This document shows positions 14,911 through 28,006 of a stretch of 64,000 bases of DNA, piece by piece. Position 1 is the stretch's first letter, and the number at the start of each line of letters is the position of its first letter. The position numbers and the translations under genes are program-made. The DNA is from Peltaster fructicola (lineage: Eukaryota > Ascomycota > Dothideomycetes), in assembly GCA_001592805.2 (NCBI GenBank), contig CP051141.1, positions 62,001-126,000 on the forward strand, in the 5' to 3' direction. The notes under the pieces were generated by a model. That model saw only the letters and a program-made list of their open reading frames with translations. It was not told the origin of the DNA and did not search any database.

Positions 14911-15049
14911 GGGGTCGTGGTCAAGTGGTAAGACGCCACGTTGTGGTTCTAGCGAGATCAATTCCGTGTCAGCCTGGGTTCGGTGAGTCCTTATCCTCTG
15001 CACCTCGCAGGCCTCGAAACTGATGCCTTCCAGATTCCCGGCGACCCCA
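14911..15049 (+). tRNA. tRNA-His (GUG), two interruptions
   Basis: Joining 14911-14946, 14964-14982 and 15034-15049 gives a cloverleaf. The acceptor stem GGGGTCG/CGACCCC is perfect. The D arm is GTC-AAGTGGTAA-GAC. The anticodon stem CCACG/CGTGT has one end mismatch (27-43). The loop TTGTGGC has anticodon GTG, the variable loop is CAGC, and the T arm CTGGG-TTCGATT-CCCGG is followed by discriminator A. The first interruption (14947-14963, 17 nt) lies after position 37, the normal place for a nuclear tRNA intron. The second (14983-15033, 51 nt) lies in the T-loop between G57 and A58, starts GTGAGT, has CTGAT before the end and ends CAG, like an mRNA intron. Box A (14918-14928) is a full match. 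Box B is split by the second insertion into GGTTCG and ATTCC. Whether it makes functional tRNA is unknown. Confidence 0.8.
14983..15033 (+). other. GT-AG (spliceosomal-type) insertion in the tRNA T-loop
   Basis: This 51-nt segment interrupts the T-loop of the tRNA-His gene exactly between TTCG and ATT. It begins GTGAGT, contains ACTGAT 11-16 nt before its end, and ends CCTTCCAG. Those are the 5' splice site, branch site and 3' splice site patterns of the protein-gene introns in this window. Intron 2 of the SDR gene (59066-59116) is also 51 nt and has a matching block, CTCGAAGCTGA against CTCGAAACTGA here. Removal would restore a canonical T-loop and B box. Confidence 0.7.
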
Positions 15050-15409
15050 ATCAACAAAATGAGCGTCTACAAGCTTCTCTGTTCTTTTTGGCATCTAACG
15101 CAGTGATCTGTGCAAGTCCAGGGACGTTTTCTGCAAGCTGAGGCCCAGACATCGCTTTTTGCCCTCGTACAGCGACAGCAGCAAGCTCACACATGCGAAC
15201 GAGCTCTAATACAATCAGAAGATGTACTGAACGATAGATGTGCATCTAGAAACACACAGATGCCATGGTCTCACGATAACGCTGCTGACAGCCAATCCAC
15301 GACCTCCCACTCAGCATAACCACTGTCCAATGCCATAATCATCGCAATAACCTGCACAACTCGTATAACGTCGCAAGTACCCAGGACAACACTGCCGGAC
15401 TCTCTTACC
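15050..15409. other. Gap between tRNA and MaoC-like gene
   Basis: Apart from the T5 run, this 360-bp stretch holds only the presumed promoter and leader of the MaoC-like gene. No gene is seen. Confidence 0.5.
15085..15089 (+). terminator. Possible Pol III terminator (T5)
   Basis: TTTTT occurs 36 nt downstream of the tRNA-His discriminator base and is the first run of four or more T after the gene. This is consistent with RNA polymerase III termination, though it is a little far from the tRNA end. Confidence 0.45.
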
Positions 15410-16378
15410 ATGCTTCTAGCGATATTCGCGGTCCTGCTGGCTCTAGGCACAGCATTGCTCTATATGCTTGCGAGTTCGTCGAAGGATCCACTCGACGTCA
15501 ACATACCACTAGCATTCGCTCAGCTACTGCTCAAGTATCTGCCTGGCTACACATCGTCGCTGAAGATAGGCAGCAGAGACCAAGGGCCAGATACATTCTC
15601 ATTCGACACGATTCAAGTCACGGGCAGGTTCTCCATCAGCGACGAAGACATCAGGACCTTCAATAAGGCAGGTTGCGGTGGCAGTCCTTTCCTCCTGGTC
15701 GCAAAGACAACACCGCTGGTGATCAAGCTGCTGTCAGATAGGAGGTGTCCTATCAAACCTCTTGGAGCTGTCAACACTAGGAACGTCATCACGTTCCTGC
15801 AGACAGACTGGCATGCAGGGACACTGCAGAAGAAGGACTTGACGTACATCGCGAGCTTTGGCACAAGTGATGGCATACGTCGGAAGCGTGGCATTGAATT
15901 CGCCATCACCATTGATGTGCTCAGTGGAGGCCAGAAGTTTGTACAGATGGAGCTATGGATGCTGCAATTCCTTCCTACTCATCACTCCCTACGTGAGCCA
16001 CGCCTCGCGGGTGACTCGGATGCTCGCAACATTCCAGGAGTGCATCTGTCATCAATCAACATGACCACACAAGATCCTCGACGATGGGCGGCATCATGCA
16101 AAGACTACAACCCTATCCACATCTCAAAGCTTGGAGCACGGCTCTTCGGCTTTAAGAGTGTCATTGCGCATGGCAATCATGTCGCTGCTCTTGCTCTACA
16201 GGAGAGTGGTACACCGATGAGGCCATTCACACTCGAGCTGGAGTTCGTTCGACCTATGCTTCTACCAGCGAAGTTCGAAGTTCTGAGAGACGATCAACAA
16301 CAGGCTGAAGTGCTGACAGTGGTATCTGATGAGCGTCGTAAGGCACACGTGCGAGTGGCTGTGAAGACTCTGGACTAG
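15410..16378 (+). CDS. MaoC-like hotdog dehydratase with N-terminal membrane anchor
   Basis: This is a single-exon protein of 322 residues. Residues 1-22 (MLLAIFAVLLALGTALLYML) form one hydrophobic helix, probably a membrane anchor. The C-terminal third has the MaoC hydratase signature: KDYNPIHISKLGARLFGFKS with VIAHGNH after it (D232, N234, H237, H254-G255). In the family Asp and His of D-x-N-P-I-H and the HG motif act in hydration of (R)-specific enoyl thioesters. The N-terminal half probably forms a second, degenerate hotdog. A role in fatty-acyl or polyketide thioester chemistry at a membrane is inferred; no partner genes lie nearby to settle it. Confidence 0.8.
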   Translation: MLLAIFAVLLALGTALLYMLASSSKDPLDVNIPLAFAQLLLKYLPGYTSSLKIGSRDQGPDTFSFDTIQVTGRFSISDEDIRTFNKAGCGGSPFLLVAKTTPLVIKLLSDRRCPIKPLGAVNTRNVITFLQTDWHAGTLQKKDLTYIASFGTSDGIRRKRGIEFAITIDVLSGGQKFVQMELWMLQFLPTHHSLREPRLAGDSDARNIPGVHLSSINMTTQDPRRWAASCKDYNPIHISKLGARLFGFKSVIAHGNHVAALALQESGTPMRPFTLELEFVRPMLLPAKFEVLRDDQQQAEVLTVVSDERRKAHVRVAVKTLD

Positions 16379-26668: not shown

Positions 26669-28006
26669 TCAACCACCCTGCTCAAGCAAACCATCTTGTC
26701 CGAGCATACCAGCCATAGGGTCGTTCTTGGCCGACCGATTTCTCCTATACTCCTCCATCTGATCTTCAGTGACGTCCTGACTCAACTCATCAAGTCTTCT
26801 CAGGCTCTCGTCCTTGCTTGGCTTGACAAGTTGCCTCTCCTCGAGTCGATCTTCTTCCATCAGACGCAGCTCTTTCTGCTTATCATTCTCCAGCACGTCT
26901 CCTCTGGCAAAGGCTTCAGCCTCCTCAATAGCCTTCATGCCTTCCCTGCCAGTGCAGAAGCTGTTCTTCACAGTAGAGTGACAACAGGCATAACCCCATT
27001 GAAAGTCCTTCCACCAGCTGCCCCATACAGACGTGTGGTTGTTGATAAGCACATCCTCAGGGTACATGCTCTTCTCTTTGCGCTCTGGCTCGCCTTTAAT
27101 CTTCCCACGATCGTCATACTCAACGTATCGCTCGTTCGACTGCGTCACGACACTCTTTTTGACCTCATCCTGACTACCATACTGCTCCAGCAGCGCCTTT
27201 CTCTTCGCTTCCTTGTTCTGGACATCCTCTTGGGCTTTGCGCTTTCGTGTGAGCTCGCCAGCAGTAGGATTGGCTTGGAGATGCAGCTTATCCACGTCGC
27301 CTCGCTCTTGTGTCTCCCAAGCATACTTCTGAGCATTCTCGAACGCAGCAGCATCGCCGGTAGCTCTCTGGAAGCCATCTTCAGCTTCTGCATCGTCTGC
27401 AACGGCATTCTCGATCGTCCTCGTCTTGGGATCGTACTTCGCACTGTCGACGTCCAGGTTCATGAGGTACTTCGCAGTGTCTTCTCGTAATCGCAGATTC
27501 CTTGTAGCGGTCGACTGCTGCCTACCCATGTCGGTCTCTTCCTCATATCGTGCATCTTCATCAGGCTTCTCTTTCCTCTGGAACTCCTCGACGACCTCTT
27601 CATACTGCGCAGCGTCATACCCATTCCAGCGATCACGCTTTGCATCCCAGCCAAGCTTGATATCCTGCACCTTCTCATCTGCAGCGATGTTCTTGCCAGT
27701 CCACTTCGCGCCATGCTTTCGTTTTCGTTGTAAGCAATCTTTTGCCTTGTGTGTCATGGCACCGCAGTTTTCGCATGCGCCCTTACGGTACTTCGTCGCC
27801 GCAGGACCTTGTACGCCTCTGTCGTACCATTTCGAGGTCGCGAGTGGGTCGTGATTCTTCTCCGCCTGCAAACGTTGATGCTCAAGATAGTCATCTTGCG
27901 TTGTGGAGTCGTCGATGTAGAAGGGCTTCTTCGCGATGAATGATGGAATGTATTCGTTGCGCTCGTTGTTCTGGCTTGCCTCTACAGGCTTCTTGGGAGG
28001 CGCCAT
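26669..28006 (-). CDS. SLU7: Pre-mRNA splicing factor SLU7
   Basis: This is a single-exon protein of 445 residues starting [13 protein letters not shown]. The N-terminal block [16 protein letters not shown] and the CCHC zinc knuckle [14 protein letters not shown] (C78, C81, H86, C91) are diagnostic of Slu7. They are followed by the conserved [14 protein letters not shown] and [12 protein letters not shown] and a charged C-terminal half. Slu7 acts in the spliceosome at the second catalytic step and influences 3' splice-site choice. The length agrees with fungal homologues. The gene lies on the same strand as the ASH1-type gene upstream. The call is firm. Confidence 0.95.

Follow-up and report, generated by a model that had tools for sequence, protein, structure and literature searches.

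In the textbook view, introns of nuclear tRNAs occupy a single position and are removed by an endonuclease dedicated to them. A tRNA-His gene of Peltaster fructicola, a fungus of plant surfaces, raises the question of whether some nuclear tRNAs might also be made by way of the spliceosome. The gene lies in the 64,000-nucleotide stretch of DNA analyzed here (G000:C3:62001-126000; hereafter the window), and an earlier note on this DNA had described it as split both by an ordinary 17-nt intron and by a spliceosomal-type insert at nucleotides 57/58. Direct reading bears out that anatomy. From its structure, its signals and comparison across the genome, we consider it highly probable that the locus is a functional, probably single-copy nuclear tRNA gene that contains, besides a 17-nt endonuclease intron, a U2-type spliceosomal intron of 51 nt within the T loop, and that it is one of at least five such genes holding six such introns.

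Anatomy and structure of the tRNA-His gene

The gene has the following features, in window coordinates.

14911..15049, + strand: tRNA-His(GTG) gene in three exons (direct reading; deletion test; covariance model R1, which was trained on the gene too)
14911-14946, + strand: first exon, through nucleotide 37 (direct reading)
14918..14928, + strand: A box TGGTCAAGTGG, with 8 of 8 consensus letters
14947-14963, + strand: ordinary 17-nt tRNA intron TTCTAGCGAGATCAATT at 37/38, not GT-AG (direct reading)
14964-14982, + strand: second exon, with 3' end GGGTTCG (direct reading)
14977..14982, + strand: GGTTCG, with which the B box begins, its remainder lying past the insert (direct reading)
14983-15033, + strand: 51-nt spliceosomal-type insert in the T loop (57/58), GTGAGT...CCAG (direct reading; intron grammar; deletion test)
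15020-15024, + strand: branch-like motif CTGAT, its A 10 nt from the insert end (intron grammar)
15034-15049, + strand: last exon ATTCCCGGCGACCCCA, comprising the T arm remainder, the 3' acceptor strand and A73 (direct reading)
15085..15089, + strand: run of five T residues, a possible Pol III terminator, 36 nt downstream

Direct reading without the insert gives a T stem, CTGGG/CCCGG, paired at 5 of 5 positions (one of them G-T) and an acceptor stem, GGGGTCG/CGACCCC, paired at 7 of 7. With both introns removed, the molecule has a GTG anticodon followed by G37, A73 and cloverleaf stems of 7/7, 3, 4/5 and 5/5 pairs. The acceptor and T stems are thus as complete as the earlier note had held, but the structure as a whole is less perfect than it implied: the anticodon stem (CCACG/CGTGT) forms 4 of 5 pairs, with a C.T mismatch at 27-43, and the D stem (GTC/GAC) has 3 pairs. 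The insert register is ambiguous by one base, 57/58 and 56/57 giving an identical product. Position 57/58 falls outside the canonical 37/38 site of tRNA introns, where the 17-nt intron lies. By minimum energy alone, the joined exons form just the acceptor stem and a portion of the T arm.

The claim that removal of 14983-15033 restores the T arm and a paired acceptor stem was examined by a deletion test, in which deletions of 0-95 nt from 26 start positions were required to leave TTCRA, a 5/5 T stem and a 7/7 acceptor stem. The sole deletion restoring the T arm and full acceptor stem was one of 51 nt. In controls, the test succeeded for one doublet shuffle in 300, for 9 mononucleotide shuffles in 300 and for 13 of 1500 tails drawn at random from the window. 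The restored structure alone is expected by chance in about 0.3-3% of cases, and the splice signals come in addition to it.

ARAGORN called no tRNA over the window, and Rfam over the window returned nothing at gathering score; on the His gene itself, RF00005 gave 14.3 bits and covered 14911-14966 only. A covariance model of the genome's own tRNAs scored 42.6 bits over 14911-15049, with the His gene among its 23 training sequences. When the model was rebuilt without the His gene, only a partial His match was obtained (15.3 bits, E 0.011), so the covariance model lends the gene no independent support. The independent structural test of the His gene is the deletion test.

Inserts in four other tRNA genes and their splice signals

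The genome searched comprised 18,987,130 bases in five contigs (4.89, 4.13, 3.68, 3.52 and 2.77 Mb). The telomere-to-telomere assembly of P. fructicola LNHT1506 is reported as 18.99 Mb in five chromosomes of 2.77-4.89 Mb, with an N50 of 3.68 Mb (PMC7181583). Searching with the Rfam tRNA family gave 28 matches above cut-off and one below. Reading these by eye revealed three genes with misplaced inserts above the cut-off, and the match below it was a fourth. In all, six GT-AG inserts of 48-53 nt were observed in five tRNA genes: His, Ile(AAT), Ser(CGA), Arg(TCT) and Arg(TCG). Four of the five interrupted genes came from the Rfam search, which is blind to splice signals. The genes outside the window are as follows.

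C5:1370790-1370930, + strand: tRNA-Arg(TCT), with a 53-nt insert, GTATGT...TTGAC...CAG, in the T stem (52/53)
C1:4689223-4689345, + strand: tRNA-Arg(TCG), with a 51-nt insert, GTGAGC...CTGAT...CAG, in the T loop (59/60)
C2:3511207-3511330, + strand: tRNA-Ile(AAT), with a 50-nt insert, GTGAGT...CTAAC...AAG, in the D loop (17/18)
C1:1824027-1824214, - strand: tRNA-Ser(CGA), with an ordinary intron of ~10 nt and two GT-AG segments in the anticodon stem

These five further inserts, of the same size and with the same signals, in four tRNA genes outside the window and at other places in the cloverleaf, are the strongest support for the reading first proposed for the His gene. Against an RF00005 cut-off of 29, the scores were 45.1 bits for Arg(TCT), 30.1 for Arg(TCG) (over a 69-nt stretch), 29.6 for Ser(CGA) and 18.9 for Ile(AAT); the last three are low and count against the reading of these loci. 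When joined exons were folded by minimum energy, Arg(TCT) and Arg(TCG) each formed an exact cloverleaf, although that of Arg(TCG) was no stabler than shuffled sequence, 175 of 200 shuffles folding equally well. The Ile(AAT) fold retained the acceptor, D and anticodon arms, and the joined exons of His and Ser(CGA) formed no cloverleaf by minimum energy alone. The idea that the six inserts are copies of one element was set aside, as 15 pairwise comparisons showed no supporting likeness between them, the two lowest shuffle counts being 7 and 12 of 200. The Ile(AAT) insert carries a perfect CTAAC branch motif.

The Ser(CGA) segments measure 48 nt (GTGAGT...CTGAT...TAG) and 49 nt (GTAAGC...CTAAT...AAG) and are separated by a single C. 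Removal of both yields a perfect anticodon stem, AATGA/TCATT. The alternative of one intron of ~97 nt was considered and is disfavored because only the two-intron removal gives five anticodon-stem pairs. Ser(CGA) thus seemingly contains three introns, with the C between its two GT-AG segments a one-nucleotide exon.

Splice signals were scored with an intron grammar consisting of a GTRHGY 5' site, a YTRAY motif whose A lies 10-12 nt upstream of the 3' end, and a terminal AG not preceded by G. All six inserts pass this grammar. Among 400,000 random genomic segments matched in length and with fixed ends, 13 do so. The GTGAGT 5' end, branch-like site and CCAG 3' end earlier reported for the His insert hold up. 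The branch A lies 10 nt from the 3' end in His, 12 in Arg(TCG), 12 in Arg(TCT), 10 in Ile, 12 in the first Ser segment and 10 in the second. On the U2-type features tested, the His insert has an extended 5' site (GTGAGT), a branch distance of 10 nt and a length of 51 nt. The grammar draws its force from fixed boundaries because, with no reading-frame condition imposed, it showed no excess: 153 matches, where six Markov runs gave 148-172 and the reversed sequence 136. A T-loop pattern, GGTTCGN{0,3}GTGAGY, gave 23 matches versus 37 in a backwards control, and the only tRNAs among them were the known His and Arg(TCG) genes.

To infer coding introns of the same genome, reading frames were bridged across the window and fetched loci, with the motif required and decoy motifs compared; bridging with any GT..AG produced too many false pairs to define coding introns. 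The grammar and bridging set totaled 259,195 bases and includes loci chosen by a GTGAGY-holding pattern, a small bias. With 80 open codons required on each side, the real motif gave 12 introns versus 0, 0 and 2 for three decoys; at 60 codons the counts were 19 versus 5, 1 and 6, and at 40 codons 44 versus 17, 8 and 20. Of 32 introns inferred at 50 codons, 24 place the branch A 9-13 nt from their end, with a mode of 10. The reported median intron of the P. fructicola genome is 50 bp, and insert lengths of 48-53 nt fit this value (PMC7181583). The inserts therefore resemble protein-gene spliceosomal introns of the same genome in 5' site, branch motif, branch distance and length. They differ in their host, a tRNA gene that is probably transcribed by Pol III, and in that one Ser(CGA) exon would be a single nucleotide.

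Ordinary tRNA introns present a different picture. A 37/38 intron was measured in 19 of 32 located tRNA genes, with three tRNA-Leu genes very likely containing one too. Three of the five interrupted genes carry such an intron (His, 17 nt; Arg(TCT), 15 nt; Ser(CGA), ~10 nt). These introns span 7-56 nt, and none of 18 could be read as GT-AG in any equivalent register, a count that leaves out the three tRNA-Leu genes, whose intron ends are unfixed, and Ser(CGA). Canonical 37/38 introns and the six inserts differ in position as well. The longest of the 18 measured, a 56-nt non-GT-AG intron at 37/38, belongs to tRNA-Phe(GAA) (C2:3730247-3730375, - strand).

Transcription and need for the interrupted genes

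The A box is complete (8 of 8 consensus letters) in four interrupted genes and has 7 of 8 in the fifth, Ile(AAT), whose insert, lying in the D loop, interrupts the A box, not the B box. Interruption of the B box is seen in His and Arg(TCG). The Arg(TCT) B box, GGTTCGAATCC, is 9/9 on the DNA, with the last G of the T-stem insert completing it. In four of the interrupted genes, a run of at least four T residues begins 3, 7, 8 or 9 nt past the gene; the distance is 36 nt in His and 1-74 nt in 26 other tRNA genes. Collectively, these features favor Pol III transcription, short of proving it. The next long open frame downstream of the His gene (window 15410-16378, + strand) has a weak MaoC-like dehydratase match of 31.8 bits.

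The spliceosome normally acts on Pol II transcripts, and the inserts might be genuine spliceosomal introns residing in Pol II precursors, such as read-through transcripts from neighboring genes. The cut B boxes of His and Arg(TCG) and the 7/8 A box of Ile are in keeping with this idea, as are short intergenic distances (reported median 463 bp; PMC7181583). Arguing against it, although not decisively, are the complete A boxes in four of the five genes, the T runs within 3-9 nt in four of five, and fission yeast U6, a Pol III RNA with an mRNA-type intron (PMC10484740). We regard Pol II precursors as unlikely, while giving them more weight than any other alternative. Fission yeast U6 also substantiates the precedent invoked in the earlier note for spliceosomal introns in fungal Pol III genes. 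The U6 gene of the present genome and six 5S genes, on contigs 1, 3, 4 and 5, carry no insert, as indicated by full-length matches to their models. Published 5S genes of P. fructicola are placed on chromosomes 1, 3, 4 and 5 (PMC7181583).

The number of tRNA genes located was 32: 29 via Rfam, His from the window, and Pro(TGG) and Phe(GAA) via patterns. Anticodons of intron-bearing genes were read by eye because ARAGORN misreads several of them. A set of 46 tRNAs is expected, and 14 of these fall outside the located set. Among pattern matches, Pro(TGG) accounted for 1 of 4 to the Pro pattern, tRNA-Phe(GAA) for 1 of 12 to the Phe pattern and no tRNA for any of 8 to the Asn/Ser(GCT) pattern. The Ala pattern had 27 matches, of which one was the known Ala(TGC) gene; five of the other 26 were fetched and none was a tRNA. 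An 818-nt probe of tRNA-like sequences found nothing.

No anticodon is repeated among the 32 located genes except CAT (initiator and elongator), and tRNAscan-SE is reported to find 44 tRNA genes in P. fructicola (PMC7181583). Together, the located genes and the published total suggest one gene per anticodon, and each interrupted gene is therefore probably the sole source of its tRNA. Because of this one-to-one relationship among located genes, the interrupted tRNA genes are probably essential. The tRNA set of this genome appears both minimal and intron-rich, with no duplicated anticodon and a measured 37/38 intron in 19 of 32 genes.

This census bears on the possibility that the His locus is a dead insertion, a decaying copy whose working counterpart lies elsewhere. 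The census is incomplete, with 14 of 46 expected tRNAs outside it. The Rfam search missed the ordinary Pro(TGG) and Phe(GAA) genes, so a second tRNA-His gene might likewise have been missed by it. Nonetheless, neither the Rfam search, known to miss ordinary tRNAs, nor a genome-wide search with a His 20-mer at up to 3 mismatches gave a second tRNA-His, the 20-mer matching only itself and one non-tRNA place. The earlier note had tied a dead insertion to several intact tRNA-His genes and to decay at this locus. With 32 of 46 expected genes located, no close second His copy was seen, the His exons are intact, and the insert boundaries fit splicing to the base. Moreover, the same pattern recurs in five different tRNA genes, no anticodon is duplicated, and a published total of 44 leaves little space for duplicates (PMC7181583). 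A dead insertion consequently appears quite improbable.

Proposed removal of the inserts and comparison with known systems

Ectopic tRNA introns are known from other systems. In the red alga Cyanidioschyzon merolae, tRNA-Ile(UAU) has introns in the D, anticodon and T arms (PMC9602550), Guillardia nucleomorph tRNA genes contain ectopic introns, many without a defined motif (PMC3978253), and tRNAscan-SE 2.0 seeks noncanonical introns in archaeal tRNAs (PMC8450103). The Peltaster inserts share with these systems a location in D and T arms and, sometimes, the presence of several introns in one tRNA gene (PMC9602550, PMC3978253, PMC8450103). As in archaea and C. merolae, the inserts could be cut by the tRNA splicing endonuclease at bulge-helix-bulge structures, with their GT-AG appearance incidental.

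Bulge-helix-bulge geometry was scored by a convention set by the 37/38 case, in 13 equivalent registers of the six inserts. The His insert has 1 of 3 outer pairs and 2 of 4 or 3 of 4 central pairs by this weak criterion; one register, with 3 of 4 central and 3 of 3 inner pairs, would suit endonuclease cleavage. No insert combined 3/3 outer with at least 3/4 central pairs in any of the 13 registers, but the test is weak, as just 5 of the 16 introns scored at 37/38 satisfy it. Taken by itself, a complete outer helix (3/3) was seen in 15 of those 16, a figure partly built into the scoring, and in 2 of the 6 inserts. Endonuclease cleavage also leaves unexplained why all six inserts combine GT-AG ends with a branch motif 10-12 nt from the 3' end, when none of 18 introns at 37/38 is GT-AG. 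Introns of C. merolae, Guillardia (not all) and archaea are described as bulge-helix-bulge, whereas the Peltaster inserts have spliceosomal signals in 6 of 6 cases and the full geometry in 0 of 6. We therefore judge the endonuclease explanation very improbable. A group I or group II intron is rejected, 51 nt comparing with a catalytic core of a few hundred nt. Rfam intron families were absent from the window at gathering score and from the surroundings of the gene up to E 10.

For spliceosomal introns in the tRNA genes, we infer an order of events in which Pol III would transcribe the gene from the A box and residual B box, and the nuclear spliceosome would excise the GT-AG intron as a lariat. 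Excision would allow the T arm (or the D arm, or the anticodon stem) to form. End trimming, T-loop modification and export would come after the spliceosomal step, and the tRNA endonuclease would remove the 37/38 intron. With somewhat less confidence than we have in the His gene itself, we favor a broader scheme in which at least five essential single-copy tRNAs are made only via the spliceosome. Ser(CGA) would then need a single endonuclease step together with two spliceosomal ones, on either side of a one-nucleotide exon. Independent gains would have placed the introns in the D loop, the anticodon stem, the T stem and the T loop, with reverse splicing into Pol III RNAs, which are abundant, as a possible route.

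A spliceosomal intron within a Pol III gene already has precedent in U6. The mRNA-type U6 introns of fission yeast and some other fungi are thought to have arisen by reverse splicing (PMC10484740). Like those, the present inserts are GT-AG spliceosomal-type introns within genes for small Pol III RNAs; in contrast, they occur in at least five tRNA genes and five cloverleaf regions of a genome whose U6 is intronless. Among the papers listed in searches of open-access full texts for spliceosomal or ectopic introns in tRNA genes, no earlier report of such inserts appeared. The passages of the P. fructicola genome paper (PMC7181583) that give the tRNA gene count and the median intron make no mention of odd tRNA introns, and a term search of an earlier genome paper (PMC4786788) showed no mention of tRNA or introns.

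The data suggest that this fungus needs the spliceosome for making some of its tRNAs. If so, translation would depend directly on pre-mRNA splicing, spliceosome-requiring tRNAs would represent a further tRNA splicing route, and the spliceosome could act on tRNA precursors that are probably Pol III transcripts. The system would be a natural test of whether splicing needs Pol II and capping, as well as of intron gain in non-coding RNA and the order of tRNA maturation. It also suggests how essential genes of compact fungal genomes can escape tRNA finders. The window itself encodes a homologue of Slu7, a second-step pre-mRNA splicing factor (26669-28006, - strand; Pfam Slu7, E 7.5e-69), probably by coincidence.
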